Assembly (NCBI GenBank): GCA_903920315.1
Contig: CAIXLU010000179.1
Coordinates: forward strand, 1 to 37,951
DNA from: an uncultured Oscillochloris sp.
Lineage (GTDB): Bacteria; Chloroflexota; Chloroflexia; Chloroflexales; Chloroflexaceae
Direction of reading: 5' to 3'
Length of the DNA stretch: 37,951 nt
The translations under genes were made by a program, and so were the position numbers. Under the pieces are notes generated by a model. That model saw only the letters and a program-made list of their open reading frames with translations, did not search any database and was not told where the DNA came from. This document shows, piece after piece, positions 14,457 to 29,922 of this stretch (positions are counted from its first letter, which is position 1; each line of letters opens with the position of its first letter).

Positions 14457-14667
14457 AGGGCTGATGCAAAGTCCTCAGATTGCCCGTGCCATAGACATGG
14501 TGTCAGGTGTCGGGTGTCAGATTTACAGTTCGTAGTGCGGGCTTCCAGCCTGCCGACGCACATCTGGCAGGCTGGAAGCCCGCACTACAAACACCGCACA
14601 CTGTAAATCCGATCTGAACCTTGTCATAGGCGTAAACGGGTCGGGTGTGTGACGTTGCATCAGCCCT
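14457..14667. repeat. Dispersed hairpin repeat, copy 1 (MITE-like)
   Basis: This element fills most of the 430-base gap between rph and selB. Outer inverted arms of 17 bases (14457-14473 and 14651-14667) match at 16 positions. Inside are CCATAGACATGG (14489-14500), three GTGTCAG-type heptamers (14500-14520), 10-base arms GATTTACAGT/ACTGTAAATC, and a perfect 23-base inverted repeat (14532-14554 and 14566-14588) with an 11-base loop. No coding capacity. A related copy is at 18111-18259. The rest of the gap (14378-14456, 14668-14807) shows no gene. Confidence 0.8.
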
Positions 14668-14807
14668 GGCGTGACACGCATAACAGGATAACTTTTGCCC
14701 TCTATTGCAAACACGGAACCATTATAGTTGCGCATGGTACAACGAGTGGTACCATGGGTGCTCTACCCTCATGTTTCTGGTTGCTCATCACTTGGTGCGT
14801 ACACCTC

Positions 14808-16655
14808 ATGTATGTTATCGGCACCGCCGGCCACGTCGATCATGGTAAGTCTACACTCGTGAAGGCGCTGACGGGGATTAACCCCGACCGCCTGGCGGAG
14901 GAGCAGCGTCGCGAGATGACGATTGATCTCGGCTTTGCATGGATGAGCCTGCCGAGCGGGCGCAGTGTGAGCCTGGTGGATGTGCCGGGACACGAGCGCT
15001 TTATCAAAAATATGCTCGCGGGTGTTGGCGGGATTGACGCTGCGCTCCTGGTGATCGCTGCCGATGAGACGATGATGCCGCAGACCATCGAGCATCTGGC
15101 GATTCTCGATCTGCTCGGCATTACTCACGGTGTGGTGGTACTTACCAAGGCCGATCTCGTAGATGCCGACTGGCTAGCTTTGGTGCGCGAGGAGGTGGGT
15201 GTGCGGCTGGCGGGTACGAGTCTCTCCAGCGCACCCATCGTCGCGGTCTCGGCTCGTCGTGGCCAGGGTCTTGATGATCTGCGTGTCGCCCTCGATGCTA
15301 TGCTTGACGCAACCCCGGCGCGCACAGGTAATACGGGTATCCCGCGACTACCGATTGACCGTGCCTTCACTATCGGCGGATTTGGCACGGTGGTGACAGG
15401 CACCCTGATTGATGGCCCCCTGGCGGTGGGTCAGGAAGTTGAGATTCAGCCGACTGGGCTGCGCGGGCGTGTCCGGGGCATCCAGACACACACGCAGCGC
15501 AGTGAGATCGCGCTCCCTGGCACACGGGTGGCGGTGAATCTGGCAGGAATCCCCCACAGCCAGATGAGCCGGGGCGATGTGTTGAGTCTGCCCGATGCCC
15601 ATACGCCCACAACGATGCTTGATCTGCGTTTGCGGGTGCTGGCCGATGCCCCACACATGATTGAGCAGAACGATGGACTGGATCTGTTTGTCGGCGCGGC
15701 GGAGGTACCCTGCCGAGTGACGCTGCTGGATGCCGAGACATTGGCTCCTGGGGCGATAGGCTGGGTACAACTGCGCCTCGATCGCCCGATCCTGGTCGCT
15801 CGGGGTGACCGCTGTATCCTGCGGGTGGCCTCACCTAGCCTGACGGTAGCGGGTGGCACGGTGATTGATCCGCATCCGCTACGCCATCGCCGCTTCCGCA
15901 GCGAGGTGCTGTCCGCCCTGGAAATCCTGGCCCGTGGAACCCCAGATGAACTGCTGCTCCAGGCGCTCGGTGACGGGCCGCCGCGTACGTGGGCAGAGTT
16001 ACGGCACGAGGTAGGTCTCTCCGAGATGGTGGCCGAGGCTACCCTCGCTGATCTGCTCTCCCGTCGTCGGGTTCTGGCGCTTGGCAAACAGATCATCACT
16101 CCTGTTGGCTGGAACAAACTGGTGGAGCGTATGCTGCCGCCGCTGCGGGCCTACCACCGGCGCTATCCGCTGCGCGAAGGTATGCCGCGTGAGGAGCTAC
16201 GTCAGCGCTTGCGCCTGAGTCCATACGCCTTTGCCGCATTCCTCGATGCTGCCGCCCACCACGGAATGATGGGCCAGAGCGAGACGTATGCGTGGCTAGC
16301 GGGACATCTGGCCCAGCCCGACGCTGCTGCTCGCCGCGATCTGGATATGGCCCTGGCCGCGATGTCTCGCGTCCCCTACAGTCCGCCCACACCGGATCTC
16401 GATAGTGAACTGCTAGCCTGGGCATGTGATCGCCGCCTGCTCGTGCGGGTCGCCACCGATGTCTACTTCCTATCCGAAACCTACGATGAATTGCTGGCCT
16501 GGGTGCGCGCCACCATCCTTGCCGAGGGCGGACTAAGCGTTGGATACCTGCGCGATCATTTTGGCAGCACGCGCAAGTACGCCCTGGCCTTTCTTGAACA
16601 CCTTGATCAGCGCACGATCACTCGCCGTGTCGGCGAGAAACGGGTGTTGCATTGA
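14808..16655 (+). CDS. selB: Selenocysteine-specific elongation factor SelB
   Basis: A 615-residue translational GTPase that delivers Sec-tRNA to UGA codons marked by a SECIS element. The G domain shows GHVDHGKST (8-16), MTIDLGFA switch region (37-44), DVPGH (58-62) and TKAD (about 112-115). EF-Tu-like beta-barrel domains follow, including FTIGGFGTVVTGTL. The C-terminal third has the chain of winged helices typical of SelB, ending in LSVGYLRDHFGSTRKYALAFLEHLD and a basic end, which bind SECIS RNA. The ATG at 14808 starts the conserved MYVIGTAGHVDHG; in-frame ATGs at 14649 and 14754 would add non-conserved sequence. The ribosome-binding site is weak. No other selenium gene is in the window. 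Confidence 0.93.
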   Translation: MYVIGTAGHVDHGKSTLVKALTGINPDRLAEEQRREMTIDLGFAWMSLPSGRSVSLVDVPGHERFIKNMLAGVGGIDAALLVIAADETMMPQTIEHLAILDLLGITHGVVVLTKADLVDADWLALVREEVGVRLAGTSLSSAPIVAVSARRGQGLDDLRVALDAMLDATPARTGNTGIPRLPIDRAFTIGGFGTVVTGTLIDGPLAVGQEVEIQPTGLRGRVRGIQTHTQRSEIALPGTRVAVNLAGIPHSQMSRGDVLSLPDAHTPTTMLDLRLRVLADAPHMIEQNDGLDLFVGAAEVPCRVTLLDAETLAPGAIGWVQLRLDRPILVARGDRCILRVASPSLTVAGGTVIDPHPLRHRRFRSEVLSALEILARGTPDELLLQALGDGPPRTWAELRHEVGLSEMVAEATLADLLSRRRVLALGKQIITPVGWNKLVERMLPPLRAYHRRYPLREGMPREELRQRLRLSPYAFAAFLDAAAHHGMMGQSETYAWLAGHLAQPDAAARRDLDMALAAMSRVPYSPPTPDLDSELLAWACDRRLLVRVATDVYFLSETYDELLAWVRATILAEGGLSVGYLRDHFGSTRKYALAFLEHLDQRTITRRVGEKRVLH

Positions 16656-18262: not shown

Positions 18263-18268
18263 TATAAT
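18263..18268 (+). promoter_or_regulatory. Candidate -10 box for pstC
   Basis: A perfect TATAAT lies 43 bases before the pstC start, just outside the end of the dispersed repeat. No good -35 is seen. It would let pstCAB be transcribed apart from pstS. Confidence 0.4.
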
Positions 18269-18311
18269 GGGCGCACGGTTGGGACAAATGCGAATGAGGA
18301 GGAGCTTTCAT

Positions 18312-19271
18312 ATGGCTGATCAAGCCCGTGTCGCCACAGATCCGGGCGGCACCGTTACGACGAGGCCGCCGCTCGATCTGCGGCGACGCCCACGGATCGG
18401 TGAGGCGATCATCCAGTTCATCCTGTTTGCCTGCGGCCTTACCTCGATCTTCGTCACCCTCGGCATTGTCTATGTCCTCGGTAAGGAGTCGCTGCTCTTT
18501 TTTCGCGACCCGACCGTCTCGCTGGTAGATTTTTTTACCACAACCATCTGGCAGCCATCCATCGGCAAGTTCGGCATCCTGCCTCTGGTTAACGCCACCC
18601 TAATGACCAGTCTCATCGCCATGCTGGTAGCCATTCCTCTCGGCCTGGGCGCGGCGATCTACCTAGCAGAGTATGCCTCTGAGCGCGCCCGTGGCATCCT
18701 CAAACCCATCTTGGAACTGCTTGCTGGTGTCCCCACCGTGGTCTATGGGTATTTTGCCCTCACCTTCGTTACTCCGATCCTGCGCAGTGTCTTCGGCCAA
18801 GATACGGTTGAGATCTATAACGACCTCTCGGCGGGCATCGTTGTGGGCATCCTGATCATCCCGATTGTCGCCACGCTCAGTGAGGATGCTCTGAGCGCGG
18901 TGCCCACAGCCCTGCGACAAGCCGCCTTCGGACTCGGTGCGACAAAGTTTGAAACTGCTGTCCACGTTGTTGTCCCCTCGGCCCTCTCTGGCATCGTCGC
19001 CGCCGGGATCATCGCCATGTCCCGCGCAGTGGGCGAGACGATGGTGGTGGCTCTGGCAGCCGGTGCCAGTCCCAACTTTACCTTCAACCCCTTCAAGCCT
19101 GCCGAAACCATGACTGGCCACATCGCCCGCATTTCCGGCGGCGACCTGAGCTACGGCACGATTGACTACACCAGTATTTTTGCCATCGGCCTAATCCTCT
19201 TCGTGATCACGATGGTACTCAACATACTGAGCCGCTGGGTTGTACAGCGCTTTCGGGAGGTTTACGAGTGA
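18312..19271 (+). CDS. pstC: Phosphate ABC transporter permease PstC
   Basis: A 319-residue inner-membrane permease forming half of the phosphate channel. It has a cytoplasmic N-terminal tail, about six transmembrane helices, and the permease coupling loop ([24 protein letters not shown], then a conserved Gly) that contacts PstB. The motif [13 protein letters not shown] is typical of PstC. The ATG at 18312 has GAGGAGGAG upstream; an earlier in-frame ATG at 18267 overlaps that site. Its stop overlaps the pstA start by 4 bases, so translation is coupled. Confidence 0.96.
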
Positions 19272-20602
19272 TACGTGCAGATTTAACCAGCTCCGTCGTC
19301 CGCAGCACCGGGCGGCTGCCCGAAGGTGCGGCGGTGCATAAAAATGTATCTGCCCGCCAGCGGGTTGGTGCGATCTGGCAGGGGCTGCTCTTCACCTGCA
19401 CGATGATCAGCATCGTTATCCTGCTGCTGCTGCTCTACAACATTGCCAACGACGCTTTCGGTGGCATTGCGGTGCAGCAAGAGGTGCCGACAAGCGAGAT
19501 CTATGCCAATCGCCAGCCGAGCGATCTGAGCCAGGAAGATCTGATCGGCATCCTGACGCAGCGGCTACGCTCGCGTGTGCTACACAATCTAGAGCGTGAA
19601 CGGCCTCTGGCCGAGCGCACTCCGGCGGATCTGATTGCGATCATTAATGCCGAGGTAATTAAGCCCGAACTGGTGGCGATCTATCCGCTGCGCGAGTATC
19701 TTTTCAACCGCAGCGAGATCACGGCTCAGCTTACGCAAGAATTCCCGCGTGCCGAGATCCGGTTCAAGAGTTGGCTGAGCACCAGCTTTATCACCAGCCC
19801 GATGGCGTCGGATGCGCAGGGTGCTGGTGTGCGTACCGCCATCCTGGGCACGCTCTGGATGCTGGGACTCACCATACTCTTCGCCTTTCCACTGGGTATC
19901 GGCGCGGCGCTCTACCTGGAAGAGTACACCAGTGATCGGCCCTTCGATGTGCGTTCCCCGGTAGGTCGCTGGCTCAACACCGCAACGGATCGACTGTCGA
20001 CCCTGATCGCGATCAACATCTACAACCTGTCAGGCGTTCCGTCTATCATCTATGGTATCCTGGGCCTGGCGATTTTCGTGCGTGCCCTGGAGCCAATCAC
20101 CAGCGGCCAGGCGTTTGGCCAAGCTGCCGATGAGACGGCCAACGGGCGAACAATTATCGCGGCGGCGCTCACGATGGCCCTGCTCGTGCTGCCGGTTGTG
20201 ATCATTAGTGCCCAAGAGGCCATCCGCGCTGTGCCGAACTCGCTGCGCCAAGCCAGCTACGGCCTAGGTGCCACCCGCTGGCAGACCATCTGGCGAATTG
20301 TGCTGCCCAGCGCGATGCCCGGCATCCTCACTGGCGCAATCCTAGCAATCTCGCGGGCAATTGGCGAGACCGCCCCGCTGATCGTGATCGGCGCATCAAC
20401 CTTCATTGTCACTGACCCGAGTGGCCCCTTTGCGAAGTTCACCGTGCTACCGATCCAGATCTATAACTGGACCGCACGGCCTCAGGGCGAGTTTCGTGCA
20501 ATTGCAGCGGCGGCAATCATTGTGCTGCTGATCCTCCTCCTCTCCATGAATGCGACCGCGATCATCCTCCGCAACTACCTGCGCTCGAAGAGGGTTTCCT
20601 AG
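19268..20602 (+). CDS. pstA: Phosphate ABC transporter permease PstA (with large extra loop)
   Basis: A 444-residue permease that pairs with PstC. After the first transmembrane helix (about 39-60) there is an unusual insert of roughly 110 hydrophilic residues (about 65-175, with [15 protein letters not shown] and acidic/basic helices) before the standard FITSP...[13 protein letters not shown] segment and five more helices. The coupling loop ([24 protein letters not shown]) is intact. Usual PstA proteins are around 290 residues, so the insert is the main departure. It starts with GTG at 19268 in a GTGA overlap with pstC. pstB begins 2 bases after its stop. Confidence 0.94.
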
Positions 20603-20604
20603 CT

Positions 20605-21390
20605 ATGGCGAACAACGACTCGTATGCGCTCGAAGCGCGCAACATGCACATCTTCTACCGAACCTTCCGTGCGGTCAGGGATGTGAGCCTCCAGATCAGG
20701 CACAACGAGATCACGGCGCTGATCGGTCCGTCGGGCTGCGGCAAGAGTACCGTGCTGCGCTCATTCAACCGCATGAACGACCTTGTTCCCGGCGCACGCA
20801 CCGAGGGCGAGGTACTCTTCTCAGGTCAAAACCTCTACGCGCCTGATGTAGACGCGGTGCAGGTGCGTCGGCGGATTGGCATGGTCTTCCAGAAGCCAAA
20901 CCCCTTCCCCAAGAGCATCTACGATAATATTGCCTTCGGCCCGAAGATTAACGGGTGGAAGGGCAGCAAGGCTGAGATGGACGCGCTCGTGGAAAGTTCG
21001 CTGCGCGGGGCGGCCCTGTGGGATGATGTGAAAGATAAACTCCCGCAAAGCGGGCTCTCGCTCTCGGGCGGGCAGCAGCAGCGCCTCTGCATCGCCCGCG
21101 CCCTGGCGGTCGAGCCAGAGATCATCCTGATGGACGAACCCTGCTCGGCCCTCGATCCGATCTCGACTCTGAAGATCGAGGAATTGATGTTCGAGCTGTG
21201 CGAGCGCTACACGATTGTGATCGTCACCCACAATATGCAGCAGGCCGCCCGCGCATCCGACCACACAGCTTTCTTCCTCATGGATGAGGATCGCGCCGGG
21301 CAACTGGTGGAATATGGCTCCACCGAACAGATCTTTCAGAACCCGAGCGACAGCCGTACCGAGCAATATATCTCCGGGCGGTTCGGCTAG
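20605..21390 (+). CDS. pstB: Phosphate ABC transporter ATPase PstB
   Basis: A 261-residue ATPase that powers PstCA. Walker A is GPSGCGKST (41-49), the signature is LSGGQQQR, Walker B is [12 protein letters not shown], and the switch histidine is in [29 protein letters not shown] is characteristic of PstB. It starts 2 bases after pstA and ends the operon; a strong hairpin follows. No phoU is present after it, unlike in many pst operons. Confidence 0.97.
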
Positions 21391-21475: not shown

Positions 21476-22066
21476 TTAGCGATCCTCGCGCTCTCCACCC
21501 TCATGCTCGCCACCCTCACCGCCCTCACCGCCGCCGCCGCCGCCGCCCTGCGCACGGTTCATCACGGAGTTCGTTGCGGTGCTGGCAACCACCAACCCGC
21601 TGGTGGCGTCTACATAAACCATACCGGTATCCAGAGTCACCTCGTAGACAATGGCTCCCTGGTAGCTCACCAGCATCGGAGCACCGGTAATCGTTGCGCC
21701 AGGAGAGTCTGCGAGGGCGTTTGTGCCGGCCTGATCCGCCGAGACCGGGTAGGAACCCTGCTGGGCGGCACTGGTACTCACCGGCTGGGCCGCTGGCTGA
21801 GCAGCAGTGGTACTCACCGGCTGGGCAGCGGAGGTGCCCGCTGGCTGGGCAACCGTAGCGCTGGCCGGCTGAGCAATGGTGGCACGGACGGGCAGGACAG
21901 CACTGGCGCTGGCCGGCTGAGCGGCGGTGGCGCTGGCCGGCTGAGTATCTGTTGGCTGAGTGGTCGTGCCTGTGCTGCTGGATCGATTTGCCACCACAAG
22001 GCCGATAGCTACCAGAATGATCGCCGCAACGACAGCGGCGAGAGTACGAGTTGTGCGCCTGTTCAC
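21476..22066 (-). CDS. Anchored PepSY-like protein with Gly/Glu/His tail
   Basis: A 196-residue protein with one N-terminal transmembrane helix (about 9-27), a low-complexity Ala/Gln/Pro/Thr linker (about 30-105), and a small domain (about 107-165) whose pattern YPVSADQAGTNALA...YEVTLDTGMVYVDATSGLVV resembles a PepSY domain. It ends in an acidic glycine run with one histidine (GGEGGEHEGGERED), possibly metal-binding. The start is GTG at 22064-22066, with AAAGG about 9 bases upstream. It is convergent to pst and divergent from the redox genes. PepSY domains often inhibit peptidases or occur in redox membrane proteins; which applies here is unknown. Confidence 0.75.
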   Translation of the reverse strand: MNRRTTRTLAAVVAAIILVAIGLVVANRSSSTGTTTQPTDTQPASATAAQPASASAVLPVRATIAQPASATVAQPAGTSAAQPVSTTAAQPAAQPVSTSAAQQGSYPVSADQAGTNALADSPGATITGAPMLVSYQGAIVYEVTLDTGMVYVDATSGLVVASTATNSVMNRAQGGGGGGGEGGEGGEHEGGEREDR

Positions 22067-22421: not shown

Positions 22422-22676
22422 ATGTCACTCGAACGACGCTCGATTTTTTTTGACCTCACCCGTGTGGAGGTGCTAGCCAATGGGCATGTGCTGCCCGAGT
22501 CGGCGCGCTGCGTGCAGTGTGGGATCTGCTCATATAATTGTCCACTCGGCCTTGACGTGCGCGCCTATGCTTGGCGAGGCGAGCCGATTTTTGATAGCAC
22601 CTGTCTCACGTGCGGGCAGTGCGTGGCTCGTTGCCCACGTGGCGTCCTCACCTTCGCTCCACTAACAAATGGATGA
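22422..22676 (+). CDS. Small two-cluster 4Fe-4S protein
   Basis: An 84-residue protein with two clean cluster motifs, CVQCGICSYNCP (about 31-42) and CLTCGQCVARCP (about 62-73), each of the CxxCxxCxxxCP type for a 4Fe-4S cluster. The spacing and the sequence before each motif resemble the HdrC-like or dicluster subunits that link flavoproteins to other carriers, more than a free bacterial ferredoxin. ATG at 22422 with GAGGAA upstream. It is 63 bases before the flavoprotein gene, so the two are likely co-transcribed and exchange electrons (inference from context). Confidence 0.9.
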   Translation: MSLERRSIFFDLTRVEVLANGHVLPESARCVQCGICSYNCPLGLDVRAYAWRGEPIFDSTCLTCGQCVARCPRGVLTFAPLTNG

Positions 22677-22739
22677 GCATAAATCAATGATGGCAGTTTG
22701 CCACCGTTGATCTCTGCTCATCTTAGAGAGGATTACCAT

Positions 22740-24062
22740 ATGGCCGCAAACTACGTTATCGTGGGATCGGGGGTCGCTGGCATCGCGGCAGCTGAGGTTC
22801 TGCGTGCACGGGCACCGGGGGCAAGCATCACCATTGTCTCTGAAGACCCTGACGGATACTATTCGCGCCCCGGACTGGCCTACTACCTGAGCGGGGAGAT
22901 CCCGGAAAAACACCTCTTCCTGCGATCAAAGGCCGACTTCCGCGCCCTCGGCATCCACTGGTTGCATGCCCAGGCCACCCAGATTGATGTCGCAGGTCAT
23001 CGCCTGATCCTCGCCGATAAGCGCTCGCTCGCCTACGACAAGCTGCTCATCGCCACCGGTGCCCGTGCGGCTGCTCCCGATTTTCCTGGCGGCGACCTCG
23101 ACGGGGTGTTCACTCTCGATACGCTGAAGGATGCCAAACGGCTAGTGCGCAAGGCCAACAAAAGCGGACAAGCAGTGGTGGTAGGCGGCGGAATCACCGC
23201 CCTGGAACTGGCCGAGGGACTACACGCCTGCGGCGTGAATGTCCACTACCTGCTGCGTGGTGCCCGCTACTGGGCCAACGTCCTTGATGCCGAGGAGTCG
23301 GAACTGGTTGAAGCGTACTTGCGCGGTGACGAGATCGAGATCCACTACCACGCACGGGTGCGTCAGGCACTAGGTAAGCGGGGCAAGCTGTACGCGGTAG
23401 AGACTGACTCGGGCGAGATCATCCCCTGCCAGATTCTGGCCGTCGCCATCGGTACGCGCCCACACCTCGACCTGGCCCGCACTGCCGGGATCACCATTGA
23501 TCGCGGTATTCTGACCGACTCCTGCCTGCGCACGAGTGCACCCGACATCCTGGCGGCGGGGGATGTGGCCCAGGTACACGACGATAGCACGGGCCGAGCA
23601 AGTCTTGATACGCTGTGGCCAACGGCACGCGCCCACGGCGAGGCTGCGGCGAACACCATGCTCGGCACACCCACGCCATACCATCGTGTGGTGGCGATGA
23701 ACGTCACGCTCCTCGCCGGTATTCCGACGACGATCATCGGTGCCCTCGGCAGCGGCAGCGATGAGGATCTGGTGGCGATTGCCCGTGGCGATAGCGAGAA
23801 CTGGCGCACCGCCGCGCCAACGTGGGTTGTCGTCGAACGACACGAGGTCAACCGGATCCGGCTGATGCTTGGTGATCGCACGATCACAGGCGCGCTGGTG
23901 ATGGGAGATCAGACTCTCTCACGCCCGCTCCAGCGCCTCATCGCCGCAAAAGCCGATATTAGTCCGATCCGCGATGCACTGCTGGCTGATGATCACGCCG
24001 TTCTCCAGCTCATCGCCACCTTCTCAGCTGAATGGGAGCGTAACCATGCAGCCACCACGTGA
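22740..24062 (+). CDS. FAD-dependent NAD(P)-type oxidoreductase
   Basis: A 440-residue flavoprotein of the pyridine-nucleotide-disulphide oxidoreductase class. The FAD-binding GSGVAGIAAAE (9-19), a second nucleotide-binding GGGITALELAE (about 147-157), ATGARA and the late AGDVAQ (about 280) are present. There is no redox CxxC pair, so it belongs with the ferredoxin/rubredoxin- and nitrite-reductase-like NAD(P)H flavoproteins rather than with thiol reductases. ATG at 22740 with AGAGAGGAT upstream. The 3' end overlaps the cytochrome b-like gene by 17 bases. It would pass electrons between NAD(P)H, the 4Fe-4S protein and the membrane protein; the direction is unknown. Confidence 0.92.
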   Translation: MAANYVIVGSGVAGIAAAEVLRARAPGASITIVSEDPDGYYSRPGLAYYLSGEIPEKHLFLRSKADFRALGIHWLHAQATQIDVAGHRLILADKRSLAYDKLLIATGARAAAPDFPGGDLDGVFTLDTLKDAKRLVRKANKSGQAVVVGGGITALELAEGLHACGVNVHYLLRGARYWANVLDAEESELVEAYLRGDEIEIHYHARVRQALGKRGKLYAVETDSGEIIPCQILAVAIGTRPHLDLARTAGITIDRGILTDSCLRTSAPDILAAGDVAQVHDDSTGRASLDTLWPTARAHGEAAANTMLGTPTPYHRVVAMNVTLLAGIPTTIIGALGSGSDEDLVAIARGDSENWRTAAPTWVVVERHEVNRIRLMLGDRTITGALVMGDQTLSRPLQRLIAAKADISPIRDALLADDHAVLQLIATFSAEWERNHAATT

Positions 24063-24906
24063 TCTGCCGACGGCGAAGGCGAACCGCCCGGTACGTCAGA
24101 CCACCTACGAGATTGAGATCTCCCTGGTATCGGTTGGTGCGATAACCGGGTTGTACCTGTGGGCATCACGCCTTGGCACACCGGCGTCGAGCGGGCTCTT
24201 CGGCCACGGGCTTGGTATTCTTGGATTTGTGCTCATGCTGGCGACGGAAACCCTTTACTCACTACGCAAACACGCACGTGGGCGGGCTATCGGGCGCCTG
24301 AGCAACTGGCTCCAGTGGCATATTGTCACCGGGATCGTCGGCTCGTATATGGTGCTGCTCCACACCGCCTGGCAGTTTAACGGTCTGGCCGGTGTGATCA
24401 CGCTGCTGACACTTGTGGTGGTGGGCAGCGGCTTTATCGGGCGCTACCTGTATACGGCGATCCCACGCACGGTAGAAGGTGCCGAAGTAACCCTCGCCGA
24501 ACTGGAGTCGCAGTTGTCGGCGGGAGCCTCCCGACTAGAGATCCTCACTCCCTCGCGTGCCGCACCAGGAGAGACTCCAACACGTCTGCGGTTGCCGCCC
24601 CTGGCTGCCACGCCGGGTGGTGCACTCACCAGCGTGATCGCCCGCCCGCTGATTAGCTGGCGTGACCGGGCCGCCCTGAACCGCGCTCTCAACGATCTCG
24701 GAAGCCAGGATCAGGCCACAGCGGATGAACTGCGCCGACTGATCAACGAGCGCCATAGCCTACTACGCCAGATCGAGCGTCTGGCCACGGCGCGCCGCCT
24801 CCTCGCGCTCTGGCATACGGTGCATATTCCGATTGGCGTTGCCCTTTTCATCTTGTCTTTCGTGCATGTCGGCGCCGCGATCTACTACGCGACGCTCCTC
24901 CGTTAA
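24046..24906 (+). CDS. Membrane cytochrome b-like protein
   Basis: A 286-residue protein with about five hydrophobic helices: four in residues 25-140 and one near 255-280, separated by a long hydrophilic section (about 145-250) that ends in a probable coiled helix (QATADELRRLINERHSLLRQIERL). Histidines inside or at the ends of helices (H54, H92, H106, H257, H260, H274) are placed as in dihaem cytochrome b proteins. A quinone or haem-relay role is inferred. The family is not recognised further. ATG at 24046 with GGGAGCG upstream; the overlap with the flavoprotein gene suggests coupled translation. Confidence 0.8.
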   Translation: MQPPRDLPTAKANRPVRQTTYEIEISLVSVGAITGLYLWASRLGTPASSGLFGHGLGILGFVLMLATETLYSLRKHARGRAIGRLSNWLQWHIVTGIVGSYMVLLHTAWQFNGLAGVITLLTLVVVGSGFIGRYLYTAIPRTVEGAEVTLAELESQLSAGASRLEILTPSRAAPGETPTRLRLPPLAATPGGALTSVIARPLISWRDRAALNRALNDLGSQDQATADELRRLINERHSLLRQIERLATARRLLALWHTVHIPIGVALFILSFVHVGAAIYYATLLR

Positions 24907-24909
24907 AGC

Positions 24910-24997
24910 GATTGCAGATTGTTGATTGTTGATTGTGCGATAAGACGCGACATACGATTTCATCTGCAAATCTGCAATCTGCAATCTGCAATCTGCA
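24910..24997 (+). repeat. Inverted pair of heptanucleotide arrays
   Basis: Four GATTGnn heptamers (24910-24937: GATTGCA, GATTGTT twice, GATTGTG) face five ATCTGCA copies (24962-24997, with one extra A). The two arrays are roughly reverse complements and could form a long stem just before the first multihaem gene. They fill the 109-base gap. Confidence 0.85.
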
Positions 24998-25018
24998 CTG
25001 TGTCCTGGGAGAGCTATG

Positions 25019-26455
25019 ATGCGTCGTCTTGGTTGTCTTACACCCTTTGGCATGGTCGCTGGTGCTATTGCGATTGTTGGGGTGATCGTTGCCGCGCTGC
25101 TGAGCGGTGGCTCGATGTTCAGCCCTGGCTCACTCAACGCTCAGGCGCATGCGGGCGTTACCCTTGGCGGGGTGAAATCCCACGCCGCTATCGGTGGGAA
25201 TTGCGCTGCATGTCACACATCCCCCTGGGAATCCCGCACCATGGCCGCGAATTGCCTCAGTTGCCACACCGATATTCAGGCTGAACTCAAGGACACCAAG
25301 ACGCTCCACGGCGCACTGTCTGATGGCGCATCCTGCCTGAGTTGCCATACCGAGCATAAGGGCGCAACCGCCAATCTTACGAAGACAGATCTAGCCAGCA
25401 ACTTCCCTCATGAGTTGCTCGGTTTCTCGCTGGCGGCCCACAAACGTACATCCGCTGGCGTTGTCTTCGCCTGTGCCGATTGTCATACCGCCCTGCGTCA
25501 ATCCCCTCGTCCGTCAAATGTTTACGCCCTCGACTCGGCGGGTTGCATCGGCTGCCATGTGGATTATCAGGCCGCCTTTATGACCACGCACCGCGCCGAT
25601 TTCGGCGATGATTGTTTGTCGTGCCACGACGGTGTGGATCGCTATAGCAACTTTAACCACGCCAAGGTGGGCTTTACGCTCGAAGGCAAGCACATTGAGG
25701 TAGGTTGCAAGCTCTGCCATACGTCTGCCCGCACCCAGGCCGATTTCAAGATTGCCGACAGCACATGCGTGGCCTGTCACCAAAAGGACGACGTACACAA
25801 GGGTTCCTTCGGCCCTGATTGTGTGGCCTGCCACACGCCCAGCGGCTGGGATCAAGTTACGTTCGACCATAACAAGACGGCCTTCCCGCTCACGGGTGCC
25901 CATATTAAGACGGCATGTGTGGACTGTCACAGCAACCACGTCTATAAAGGCACACCCACCACATGCGTGGACTGCCACGCTGAGCCGCAGGAACACCTGG
26001 GCCAGTACGGCACCGACTGCGCCGCCTGCCATACGACCAACGACTGGAAAGAGGTTACGGCATTCGACCATAGCAAGACCGCCTTCCCGCTCACGGGTGC
26101 TCACATCAAGACAACATGTGTGAAGTGTCACGCTAACAACGTCTATAAGGGTACGCCCACCACATGCGTGGGCTGTCACGCCGACCCGCAGGTTCACCTT
26201 GGTCAGTTTGGCACCGACTGCGCCGCCTGTCACGTGACGAGTAGCTGGAAGAATGTCATCTTCAAACACACCTTCCCGCTCAACCACGGAGGCAAAGGAC
26301 AGATTCCATGCGTAACATGCCACACGAATGTGGGGTCGCAACAGTTTAAGACCTACACCTGCTACAAGTGCCACTCCCAGAGCGGTGTAGCCGCAGAGCA
26401 TCGCGGGATGGGCGACTACAGCAATTGTATGCGTTGCCACGCCGATGGTCGGTAA
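25019..26455 (+). CDS. 18-haem c-type cytochrome
   Basis: A 478-residue secreted or anchored protein (479 from the ATG one codon earlier; the second ATG is preferred for spacing to GGAGAG and because the paralogue begins MRRLGC). An N-terminal hydrophobic segment (about 11-33) serves as signal or anchor. After it come 18 CXXCH haem-attachment motifs, with many extra His that could be distal ligands. Haems 7-15 form three repeats of a three-haem module of 67-70 residues, with conserved VYKGTPT, GTDC and FDHSKTAFPLTGAH. It ends with a three-haem cap shared with its paralogue. It would be matured outside the cytoplasm and act as an electron conduit. It follows the cytochrome b-like gene by 112 bases. 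Confidence 0.95.
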   Translation: MRRLGCLTPFGMVAGAIAIVGVIVAALLSGGSMFSPGSLNAQAHAGVTLGGVKSHAAIGGNCAACHTSPWESRTMAANCLSCHTDIQAELKDTKTLHGALSDGASCLSCHTEHKGATANLTKTDLASNFPHELLGFSLAAHKRTSAGVVFACADCHTALRQSPRPSNVYALDSAGCIGCHVDYQAAFMTTHRADFGDDCLSCHDGVDRYSNFNHAKVGFTLEGKHIEVGCKLCHTSARTQADFKIADSTCVACHQKDDVHKGSFGPDCVACHTPSGWDQVTFDHNKTAFPLTGAHIKTACVDCHSNHVYKGTPTTCVDCHAEPQEHLGQYGTDCAACHTTNDWKEVTAFDHSKTAFPLTGAHIKTTCVKCHANNVYKGTPTTCVGCHADPQVHLGQFGTDCAACHVTSSWKNVIFKHTFPLNHGGKGQIPCVTCHTNVGSQQFKTYTCYKCHSQSGVAAEHRGMGDYSNCMRCHADGR

Positions 26456-26465
26456 CAGAGCAACG

Positions 26466-26502
26466 AGCGTAAGGTTGGTGCATTTATCGCCAACCTTGCG
26501 CT
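26466..26502 (+). terminator. Hairpin between the two multihaem genes
   Basis: 13-base arms (26466-26478 and 26490-26502) pair with one G-T wobble across an 11-base loop. No T run follows, so it may stabilise the upstream message or partly stop transcription. Confidence 0.5.
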
Positions 26503-26545
26503 GATCGCTGAATCTAGGGATGCCTTCATCTGAGAGAGGGCTATC

Positions 26546-28993
26546 ATGCGTCGTCTTGGCTGCCTTACACCCTTCGGCATGGTCGCAGGTCTTATCGCCG
26601 TCGTCATCACTGCCGTTATCGCCCTACTGAGCGGCGGTGCGATGTTTAGCCCTGGCCCCCTCAGTGCTCAGACGCATGTTGGCATCACCCTTGGCGGGGT
26701 GACATCCCACGCCGCCCTCAGCACCAACTGCGGCGCGTGCCATAACGCCCCCTGGGATAAGCGCACGATGGCAGAGAGTTGTCTCGCTTGTCACACCGAA
26801 ATTCAGGCTGATATTGCCAATCCCAGCACGCTCCACGGCGTGCTGACCAATGGCACCGCATGTCTGACCTGTCACACCGAGCATGCGGGTGCAACCGCCA
26901 ATCTCACCAAGGGCGATCTAACCAACTTCCCCCACGAGAAGATCGGTTTTTCGCTGGCGACCCACAAGCGGATGAGTGATGGAAGCACATTCACCTGCGC
27001 CGATTGCCACACGGCCCTCAGCAAATCTCCTCGCCCGTCGAACGCCTACGTCCTTGGCTCGGCAGATTGTGTGAGTTGCCACGTGGACTACCAGGCTGCC
27101 TTTATGACCACGCACCGCGCCGATTTTGGCGATGACTGTTTGTCATGCCACGACGGTGTGGATCGCTATAGCGATTTCAACCACGCCACCCTGAGCTTTG
27201 CACTCGAAGGTAAACATGCGGATGTGGGCTGTCGGCTCTGCCATACCGCTGCCCGTACCCAGGCCGATTTCAAGATCGCCGATAGCACATGTGTCGCTTG
27301 TCACCAGAAGGATGATGTGCATAAAGGTGCCCTTGGCAGCGACTGTGCCAGTTGCCACACACCCGCTGACTGGAAGAAGGCCACGTTCGATCATAACAAG
27401 ACGAATTTCGCCCTCACCGGTACCCACGCCACGGTGGTCTGTGCCAAGTGCCACAGCGACCACGTCTATAAGGGAACGCCGACCACGTGCGTGGGTTGTC
27501 ACGCCGATCCGCAGGTTCACCTCGGCCAGTTTGGTACCGACTGCGCCAGTTGCCACGTCACCAGCGACTGGAAGGATCTGTCGCTATTCGACCATAGCAA
27601 GACGAACTTTGCCCTCACCGGCGATCACATCAAGGTGGTCTGCGCCGACTGCCACGCCAACCACGTCTACAAGGGCACGCCCACCTCGTGCGTGGCCTGC
27701 CACGCCGAGCCGAAGAAACACCTCGGCCAGTTTGGCACCGACTGTGCCAGTTGCCACGTCACCAGCGACTGGAAGCAGGTCTCTGCCTTCGACCATAGCA
27801 AGACCGCCTTCCCGCTCACCGGTGCCCACGCCAAAGTGGTCTGTGCCAGTTGCCACGGCAATAACATCTACAAAGGTACGCCCACCTCGTGTATCGCCTG
27901 TCATCAGAAGGATGATGTACATAAAGGTGCCCTTGGTACCAACTGTGCAGGCTGCCACTCCACCAGCGCGTGGAAGCAGATCACCTTTAACCACAGCAAG
28001 ACCGCCTTCCCGCTCACGGGTGCCCACGCCAAGGCGGTCTGCGCGAGCTGCCACGCCAACCACGTCTATAAGGGCACGCCCACCAGTTGTGTCGCCTGTC
28101 ACCAGAAAGACGACAAACACCAGGGCAGCTTCGGCACCAACTGCGCCAGTTGCCACGTCACCAGCGACTGGAAACAGATCACCTTTAACCATAGCAAAAC
28201 CGCCTTCCCGCTCGCCGGTGTCCATGCGACGACGGTCTGCGCCAGTTGCCATGTCAACAACGTCTACAAGGGCACGCCCACCTCGTGTATCGCCTGCCAC
28301 CAGAAAGATGACAAGCATCAGGGGGCCTTCGGCACCGACTGTGCCAGTTGCCACACGGCTAGCGGCTGGGGCCAGGTCGTATTCGACCATAACAAGACCG
28401 CCTTCCCGCTCGTCGGTGGCCACACCAAGACGGTCTGCACCAATTGCCACGCTAACAACATCTACAAGGGCACACCCACCGCGTGTGTTGCGTGCCACCA
28501 GAAAGATGACAAGCATCAGGGAGCCTTCGGCACCGACTGCGCCAGTTGCCACACACCTAGCGGCTGGGGCCAAGTGACATCGTTCGACCACAGCAAGACG
28601 GCGTTCCCACTCACCGGTGCCCACACCAAGACGGTCTGTAGCAAGTGCCACGCCAACAACGTCTACAAGGGCACACCCACCGCATGCGTCGCGTGTCATG
28701 CCGAGCCGCAGGAACATCTTGGCCAGTTTGGCACCGCCTGCGCTAGTTGCCACACAACGAGTAGCTGGAAGGGTGCGACCTTCAAACACACCTTCCCGCT
28801 CAACCACGGAGGCAAAGGCCAGATCCCGTGCGCCACATGTCACACGAACCCGCCGCCACAGCAGTACCAGACCTACACCTGCTACGGATGCCACGCCGAG
28901 GCCCGAATGATCTCGAAGCACCGTGAGGAGGGAATTGGCGACATTAGCAACTGTGTACGCTGCCACTCCGGTGGTCGGAATCACGACGACTGA
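26546..28993 (+). CDS. 33-haem c-type cytochrome
   Basis: An 815-residue paralogue of the upstream 18-haem cytochrome. The same N-terminal anchor (MRRLGCLTPFGMVAG, hydrophobic to about 33) leads into 33 CXXCH motifs. The first six haems and the last three align with the shorter protein; between them are eight copies of the three-haem module (haems 7-30) in place of three, which accounts exactly for the 15 extra haems. The modules share CxxCHxNxVYKGTPT, the HLGQFGTDCASCH or HQGxFGTDCASCH type, and DHSKTAFPLTGAH. ATG at 26546 with GAGAGAGGG upstream. The predicted product is a long haem chain for moving electrons in the periplasm or outside the cell. No other domain is seen. Confidence 0.95.
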   Translation: MRRLGCLTPFGMVAGLIAVVITAVIALLSGGAMFSPGPLSAQTHVGITLGGVTSHAALSTNCGACHNAPWDKRTMAESCLACHTEIQADIANPSTLHGVLTNGTACLTCHTEHAGATANLTKGDLTNFPHEKIGFSLATHKRMSDGSTFTCADCHTALSKSPRPSNAYVLGSADCVSCHVDYQAAFMTTHRADFGDDCLSCHDGVDRYSDFNHATLSFALEGKHADVGCRLCHTAARTQADFKIADSTCVACHQKDDVHKGALGSDCASCHTPADWKKATFDHNKTNFALTGTHATVVCAKCHSDHVYKGTPTTCVGCHADPQVHLGQFGTDCASCHVTSDWKDLSLFDHSKTNFALTGDHIKVVCADCHANHVYKGTPTSCVACHAEPKKHLGQFGTDCASCHVTSDWKQVSAFDHSKTAFPLTGAHAKVVCASCHGNNIYKGTPTSCIACHQKDDVHKGALGTNCAGCHSTSAWKQITFNHSKTAFPLTGAHAKAVCASCHANHVYKGTPTSCVACHQKDDKHQGSFGTNCASCHVTSDWKQITFNHSKTAFPLAGVHATTVCASCHVNNVYKGTPTSCIACHQKDDKHQGAFGTDCASCHTASGWGQVVFDHNKTAFPLVGGHTKTVCTNCHANNIYKGTPTACVACHQKDDKHQGAFGTDCASCHTPSGWGQVTSFDHSKTAFPLTGAHTKTVCSKCHANNVYKGTPTACVACHAEPQEHLGQFGTACASCHTTSSWKGATFKHTFPLNHGGKGQIPCATCHTNPPPQQYQTYTCYGCHAEARMISKHREEGIGDISNCVRCHSGGRNHDD
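27230..28753 (+). repeat. Eight three-haem modules within the 33-haem gene
   Basis: Eight direct repeats of about 190-210 bases each encode three CXXCH motifs. Stretches such as the VYKGTPT codons are nearly identical between copies. The 18-haem gene has three such modules at 25706-26233. Confidence 0.9.
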
Positions 28994-29172: not shown

Positions 29173-29922
29173 ATGAAACAATGCACTCATCCTTGCCAAA
29201 CTGTCACCTCCAACCATAGTAACCTAGAGAAATTGCGTACTCACCTGATCGAGGGACACCAGTGTCTGGACGCATGGCTGGCCCTGAGCCAGCTTGTGAA
29301 CGATCCACGCCAGCAGAAGGATTGCCTTGAGCGAGCTTCTGTACTGGCCCCCGACAACGAACAGGTACAGATCGCCTATCTGGAGGCGTGCATTGCACTT
29401 GAGCCAAACAACGTTATCGCACAGCATCGGTTGGCCGAGATTCGCACGATGCAACTGCTCTCTGGCATGAAGACGGATCACTTCCACGATAAGCCACGTC
29501 CACGCCTAGTCGGTGACATCCTGATCGCAAACGGAGTGATCTCGGGTGACGAATTGAACGAGGTGCTGCGCATACAGAAAGCCGGCAGCGTGATCGCCTC
29601 CGACCGGCGGGTCGGACAACTGCTGCTCAAAAAGGGGCTGATCACGCCGAGTAAACTCGCACAGGCTTTGATCATGCAGCAGCAGGAGCGCAGCCAACTG
29701 CGCATCGCCCCCCAGGTACTTGGCGAATACCTTGTTGAGCAAAACTATATTACCCCTCAGCAGCTTGAAATGGTTCTCGCCGAGCAACTGCGCCTCGACC
29801 AGAAGGGCCAGCGGCTCAGCCTCGGCCAGATCCTCGTCCGCCTGAACCTCATAAGTCAGGCTCGGATCGATCACGCGGCCAAAGAGCATGAACTTTCATT
29901 CTGGTCGAAATTTGGCTATTAG
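29173..29922 (+). CDS. Stand-alone TPR plus MshEN-like repeat protein
   Basis: A 249-residue soluble protein. Residues about 18-95 form TPR-like helices. The rest contains four copies of a pattern RLGxxLxxxxxIxxxxLxxAL: 111-133, 146-168, 182-204 and 216-237. This is the half-repeat of the MshEN (GspE N-terminal) domain, which in type IV pilus and type II secretion ATPases binds cyclic-di-GMP or the membrane platform. No ATPase domain follows, so it is probably an adaptor or sensor. The first two copies keep the Arg of the cyclic-di-GMP motif. The start at 29173 lacks a clear ribosome-binding site. It has a hairpin on either side and so is a single-gene unit. Confidence 0.8.
   Translation: MKQCTHPCQTVTSNHSNLEKLRTHLIEGHQCLDAWLALSQLVNDPRQQKDCLERASVLAPDNEQVQIAYLEACIALEPNNVIAQHRLAEIRTMQLLSGMKTDHFHDKPRPRLVGDILIANGVISGDELNEVLRIQKAGSVIASDRRVGQLLLKKGLITPSKLAQALIMQQQERSQLRIAPQVLGEYLVEQNYITPQQLEMVLAEQLRLDQKGQRLSLGQILVRLNLISQARIDHAAKEHELSFWSKFGY

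Follow-up and report, generated by a model that had tools for sequence, protein, structure and literature searches.

Very large c-type cytochromes have already been reported from the Chloroflexota. Anaerolineales contain large cytochromes with variable numbers of haems and no porin-cytochrome complex (PMC7399161), a 24-haem protein occurs in another chloroflexote (PMC3971608), and in Ardenticatena, which is capable of extracellular electron transfer, at most 7 haems are found in one protein (PMC5808234). The electron route to the giant cytochromes of the Anaerolineae and their relatives is the question on which the locus presented here bears, since the earlier work supplied the cytochromes and no porin conduit. 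Functional analogues of such a route are known from other systems, namely the NOX enzymes, the Hmc and Tmc complexes, and Mco. The locus lies in a 37,951-nt stretch of DNA (hereafter, the window) from an uncultured Oscillochloris sp. (assembly GCA_903920315.1, contig CAIXLU010000179.1, positions 1–37,951), in which the open reading frames define a cassette of five genes on the plus strand at 22422–28993. A preliminary description, made from the sequence alone, had listed these genes as encoding a 4Fe-4S protein, a flavoprotein, a cytochrome b-like membrane protein, and two multihaem cytochromes, and all five were found at that place and on that strand. Pfam searches assigned 4Fe-4S, Pyr_redox_2, and cytochrome c7/c3-type domains to the corresponding products, and the membrane protein had no Pfam match. 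We consider it rather probable that the products of this cassette work together as a single transmembrane NAD(P)H:multihaem-cytochrome oxidoreductase, which would feed a surface haem chain leading to an extracellular acceptor.

Relatives were collected starting from the membrane protein, in a pattern scan that covered 84,980 species genomes and in whole-genome searches. The scan, which reaches close relatives only, returned Chloroflexota records only, and the loci closest to the window were from Oscillochloris, with 87% identity in the cytochrome b-like protein, which puts the window in the order Chloroflexales of the Chloroflexota. The whole-genome searches were positive in 61 out of 400 genomes of the phylum and 11 out of 41 of the family; most of the loci found belong to the Anaerolineae. 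The four gene types stand together on one strand in 46 of the 47 distinct loci with enough flanking sequence (47 of 48 in the raw count, in which one contig had been fetched twice, as L006 and L094). Homologues consistently found apart from each other, which the preliminary description had named as evidence against a common path, are therefore not what the relatives display. The order 4Fe-4S, flavoprotein, cytochrome b, multihaem is kept in 40 distinct loci, and six are ordered cytochrome b, multihaem, 4Fe-4S, flavoprotein, multihaem. In the window, the cytochrome b-like gene starts at 24046 and the flavoprotein gene ends at 24062, so that the overlap noted previously is real and amounts to 17 bp. 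Tree distances of the flavoprotein and the cytochrome b co-vary (r=0.953, compared with a maximum of 0.32 in 999 permutations), and the two seem to have descended together. No extra neighbour is conserved across the whole set of loci. F-type ATP synthase genes were recognised by eye at distances of up to ~8 kb, but only in about a dozen loci, all from Anaerolineales (L022, L028, L034, and about nine others). L026 (1035–10215) has two complete cassettes side by side, whose chains carry 41 and 20 haems.

The cytochrome b-like protein (286 residues; 24046–24906, plus strand, as are all features of the cassette given below) is the proposed two-haem membrane conduit. Its AlphaFold2 model (predicted local distance difference test score, pLDDT, 83) has five transmembrane helices (TM1–TM5) at residues 18–41, 51–76, 85–106, 113–138, and 256–283. 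The protein contains no Cys and eight His, and four of the latter (His92, His106, His260, and His274) are among the 13 positions that are invariant across 65 aligned sequences. They form two H-x13-H pairs, His92/His106 on TM3 and His260/His274 on TM5, in 65 out of 65 members; conservation of His among relatives had been set earlier as a test of the cytochrome b-like assignment, and it holds. The positive-inside charge pattern indicates that loops 2 and 4 are cytoplasmic, which puts one His of each helix, His92 and His260, at the inner face and the other, His106 and His274, at the outer, as expected in this model for two stacked b haems. The predicted ligands of the inner haem are thus His92 in the cytoplasmic half of TM3 (24319–24321) and His260 at the cytoplasmic end of TM5 (24823–24825), and those of the outer haem are His106 at the outer end of TM3 (24361–24363) and His274 in the outer half of TM5 (24865–24867). 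The TM3 pair is also present in deep paralogues, and the TM5 pair is found in all of those that were read, L197 excepted, where the match covers the first half only. Two further residues, His54 (24205–24207) and His257 (24814–24816), are invariant in the 54 main-clade sequences and in L080 and L089, and are absent from a group that lacks haem chains; they were rejected as a strict mark of partnership with a haem chain, since L196 has neither and is paired with a 7-haem cytochrome. Model and alignment also delimit a cytosolic helical insert between TM4 and TM5 (residues 150–255; 24493–24810), which is missing from 184-residue Anaerolineae orthologues (model pLDDT 85.5) and is a possible docking site.

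On the cytosolic side, the first gene (22422–22676; start set from comparison with relatives) encodes a ferredoxin-like protein of 84 residues without a membrane segment, which matches Fer4_17/Fer4_10 and carries two CxxCxxCxxxCP motifs, as expected for two [4Fe-4S] clusters. Its eight Cys are invariant in 47 out of 47 homologues, and it is the proposed electron carrier from the flavoprotein to the cytochrome b. The flavoprotein (440 residues; 22740–24062, with the start corrected to the ATG at 22740) is a Pyr_redox_2 protein (PF07992, E 9e-54) of the flavin adenine dinucleotide (FAD)/NAD(P) type, resembles PadH, AorC, and the N-terminal part of NirB, and is the proposed entry point of NAD(P)H. 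Its nearest solved chains are 1xhc and 8c0z_E (the FAD subunit of AOR), and its best NCBIfam model is PadH (NF045765), with 188 bits, under the equivalog cut-off of 475. The NAD(P)-binding loop HYLLRG (23244–23261) includes Arg173, conserved in 49 out of 49 homologues, at the position where the loop touches the adenosine ribose. The corresponding site reads HRG in 1xhc, C/Q-R-G in variant entries of BphA4, which we take to have been engineered towards NADPH, and Glu in 8c0z_E. Because Arg is shared with the former two and Glu is found in the latter, Arg173 favours NADPH rather than NADH as the predicted substrate.

The two c-type cytochromes (25016–26455, with Cytochrome_C7/Cytochrom_c3_2 domains, and 26546–28993) contain exactly the 18 and 33 CxxCH motifs counted previously, whereas their Cys and His composition alone would give ~0.2 and ~0.5. 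They are paralogues, with 67% identity over the shared part. In both proteins and their relatives, a conserved RLGC motif (RLGCLTP....) precedes an N-terminal membrane segment, and the stretch ahead of the first haem is conserved as well. Because this segment is conserved, the cytochromes are probably membrane-anchored with their haems outside; the preliminary description had called them secreted, and they look attached to the outer face of the membrane and not free. Module alignment and a DNA identity matrix resolved seven tandem modules of 66–67 residues, with 3 haems each, in the 33-haem protein (27374–28777), and two such modules in the 18-haem protein, and five extra modules, gained by repetition, explain the longer chain. 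An assembly artefact was rejected as an unlikely origin of the 33-haem gene, since the modules are only 65–84% identical in DNA. Haem numbers among relatives range from 9 to 47, and a single chain, of 15 or 18 haems, is present in those other Oscillochloris loci that could be followed far enough. The 33-haem gene is therefore a local expansion and no extreme of the family, since relatives reach 47. A sequence search of solved structures returned no match for the 18-haem protein, and the HmcA model scored 59 bits against the cytochromes (threshold, 400).

The preliminary description had proposed that cytoplasmic reductant is moved to, or from, a haem wire outside the membrane, and the linkage of the genes together with the four invariant His supports such a path. 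The gene set, its motifs, the conserved linkage, the invariant His, and the predicted topology are direct results of the analysis; that the products assemble and carry haem, and the route, direction, and physiological role of the electron flow, are inferred as follows. Cytoplasmic NAD(P)H would be oxidised by the FAD of the flavoprotein, and electrons would pass singly through the two 4Fe-4S clusters to the b haem at the inner face (His92/His260), from there to its counterpart at the outer face (His106/His274), and then to the membrane-anchored 18- and 33-haem cytochromes. The haem chains would spread the electrons along the surface or wall of the Chloroflexota filament to an extracellular acceptor. 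Overall, the device would resemble an NADPH oxidase that has been split into subunits and in which a haem wire replaces oxygen as the first outer acceptor. The flow is probably outward, because with any common extracellular donor an inward transfer to NAD(P)+ would have to go against the redox gradient as well as the membrane potential. Outward transfer by itself conserves no energy, which makes a role as a sink likely, and disposal of surplus reductant, for example in dark fermentation or photoheterotrophy, is the probable use. More tentatively, and with a little less than even confidence, we propose that the device is independent of quinones and typical of Chloroflexota, and that it is a modular, NADPH-oxidase-like respiratory complex that passes electrons of NAD(P)H straight over one membrane onto a covalent haem wire and serves as an electron sink. 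In its evolution, the FAD-FeS-cytochrome b trio would have recruited multihaem chains that were then lengthened repeatedly.

The membrane protein is described here as working like the two-haem cytochromes of the NOX and b561 types and is not filed as a member of either family, because its structural Z scores fall within the chance range and the profiles gave no firm link to NOX or b561. A fold search with the full-length model was set aside, as the matches were dominated by the coiled-coil insert (BAR domains and chemoreceptors), and the insert-free 184-residue orthologue was therefore folded instead. In favour of the proposed path, the fold neighbours of the short orthologue include several two-haem proteins, with Z 10.2 for superoxide oxidase (5oc0), 10.0 for a designed two-haem bundle, 9.3 for b561 (4o6y), 9.1 for cytochrome b6 of b6f, 9.0 for SpNOX, 8.1 for FdnI, and 7.3–7.4 for NOX5; unrelated helical bundles such as talin are also among the neighbours. 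Several results weigh against the path. VIA Z scores of 8–10 are within the chance range for helical bundles and may reflect no more than a shared arrangement of helices. Foldseek searches gave no match with E < 0.001. Alignment with hhalign to Chloroflexota sets of PF01794 (ferric reductase/NOX) reached a probability of <1%, and alignment to b561 reached 7–11%, with a raw score near that of the reversed control. At the gene level, the cytochrome b of L014, the one exception among the 47 loci, stands alone, and the stretches retrieved for L089 and L196 contain an 8-haem and a 7-haem cytochrome, respectively, beside the cytochrome b but no flavoprotein. Finally, quinones are frequent reaction partners of b561 cytochromes, which makes a quinone step possible. 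As for other families, the window protein had no PF01794 match in the Pfam search, and no NarI or NrfD model was among the weak matches listed for the 65 members.

The alternative that survives best builds on that last property of b561. It regards the membrane protein as a quinone-reactive b561-type cytochrome, with the flavoprotein and the haem chain each exchanging electrons with menaquinone and the pool carrying them out. The nearest fold is that of superoxide oxidase from Escherichia coli, which is a quinone-linked b561. Similarity to PF01292 (b561/Ni-hydrogenase type) is weak but widespread: at a limit of E 1 it is seen in 56 of the 65 members, the best value being 1.8e-6. It is nevertheless too weak to establish membership, as the window protein scored 15 bits and the short orthologues ~23–24, under a cut-off of 30.1. 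Moreover, two helices with two invariant His each suit direct transfer across the membrane, and a dedicated flavoprotein and 4Fe-4S protein would be superfluous for a quinol:cytochrome reductase. B subunits linked to quinone-type carriers have been proposed beside multihaem proteins in Mco of anaerobic methanotrophic (ANME) archaea (PMC9012536) and in CbcBA of sulfate-reducing bacteria (PMC10553843). On balance, this menaquinone-linked reading is considered unlikely, although it is the main alternative.

It is considerably less probable that the same conduit runs inward, with NAD(P)+ being reduced for phototrophic CO2 fixation by electrons taken up from Fe(II) outside the cell, an electrode, or a partner cell. 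Reduction of NAD(P)+, at about -320 mV and against the membrane potential, requires a donor of much lower potential than Fe(II), and the Anaerolineae, to which most loci belong, are usually considered non-phototrophic fermenters. The assembly does carry reaction-centre genes (PF00124), as well as genes for c-haem assembly (PF01578, CcsA/CcmF-type), and the host genome is thus consistent with an anoxygenic phototroph able to make c-type cytochromes; the PF00124-type proteins would suit the inward alternative, as does the chloroflexote Ardenticatena, which gives cathodic as well as anodic current (PMC5808234). The weakest proposal, that the trio reduces haem or thiols during maturation of the giant cytochromes and is neither their donor nor their acceptor, can draw on the 51 haems whose assembly calls for a reductant at the outer face and on the position of the trio directly before the cytochrome genes, but is very improbable given that related trios occur in genomes with no adjoining haem-chain gene and that this genome already has its own CcsA/CcmF-type assembly genes.

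Large-genome families of the same phylum carry FAD-FeS-cytochrome b trios without a multihaem gene, and the four His are kept in these trios. Since trios exist without chains and retain the His, the trio appears to be a unit able to act on its own. Such trios are found in L086–L091, with a response-regulator-like gene close by in L086, L087, L090, and L091. Large-genome Chloroflexota also have a deep paralogue of this trio (L206, 1761–6688; also L207, L208, and L211), with, in L206, an FHA domain on the flavoprotein and cyclic-nucleotide-binding domains on the Fe-S protein, which suggests regulated transmembrane electron transfer. The cytochrome b of one deep paralogue matched PF01794 with E 1.5e-4 and 22 bits, under the cut-off of 28. 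In L198 (1675–5725), a distant relative of the cytochrome b is followed by a molybdopterin oxidoreductase of 1100 residues.

Directly upstream of the cassette in the window (18267–21390) are genes for ATP-binding cassette transporter membrane and ATPase components that resemble a phosphate (pst) operon, followed by a divergent gene on the minus strand (21476–22066) with a Pro/Ala/Gln/Ser-rich repeat region; its C-terminal part looks PepSY-like by eye, and its product had no Pfam match. Downstream (29173–29922) is a gene for a protein with three MshE-type motifs that bind cyclic di-GMP, and SelB, the selenocysteine-specific elongation factor, is encoded at 14649–16655. Promoter and terminator scans gave a signal no higher than in shuffled sequence.

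In the openly licensed literature, no description was found of a flavoprotein-4Fe-4S-cytochrome b input module in Chloroflexota, nor a paper on a multiheme cytochrome in Oscillochloris. The combination with a 33-haem chain had struck the preliminary description as unfamiliar; the chain length itself is not unusual for the family. The cassette offers a complete candidate path from cytoplasmic reductant to outer haems, with named residues, and hence a testable route for electron exchange between filamentous Chloroflexota and their surroundings. Should the path be free of quinones, this would set it apart from the best-known systems for extracellular electron transfer, in which the inner-membrane step is quinone-linked. 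The trios without chains, one of them with cyclic-nucleotide-binding and FHA domains, suggest a modular and regulated device for electron export.

The Hmc and Tmc complexes of sulfate reducers combine a multihaem cytochrome outside, a b-type membrane subunit, and an Fe-S protein inside, and they resemble the cassette in linking outer haems across the membrane to a cytoplasmic partner. However, the cassette has no CCG-domain Fe-S protein (only Fer4 matches were obtained), its membrane protein showed no NrfD-type model among the weak matches listed, and its cytoplasmic end is a proposed NAD(P)H flavoprotein. In the Mco locus of ANME archaea, a gene for a VhtC-like cytochrome b is followed by one for a 7–11-haem cytochrome, and the passages describing Mco propose that it oxidises methanophenazine and serves extracellular electron transfer (PMC9012536); these passages name no flavoprotein or 4Fe-4S gene with Mco, whereas the cassette has a built-in NAD(P)H side. 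PadF/PadH of phenylglyoxylate dehydrogenase and the FAD subunit of the tungsten aldehyde oxidoreductase (AOR) are comparable as flavoproteins that work with Fe-S proteins on NAD(H), but they belong to soluble enzymes, and the pair in the cassette is tied to a membrane cytochrome and haem chains. The Mtr and Pcc porin-cytochrome conduits differ in that no beta-barrel protein is encoded among the five genes of the cassette. The Anaerolineales cytochromes, as described, resemble those of the cassette in giant size and changing haem number, and the terms cytochrome b and flavoprotein do not occur in the main text of that study (PMC7399161). A further parallel is with the NOX and ferric reductase proteins (NOX, SpNOX; PF01794), in which a cytosolic NAD(P)H-FAD module passes electrons outward through two stacked b haems. 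The haem ligands there are pairs of His, ~13–14 residues apart, one pair on each of two helices, and H92/H106 and H260/H274 of the cassette protein are placed in the same way. Unlike NOX, in which the FAD/NADPH domain is of the FNR type, the cassette uses a Pyr_redox_2 flavoprotein, and it distributes the functions over separate subunits, with an added 4Fe-4S carrier inside and giant multihaem cytochromes outside.

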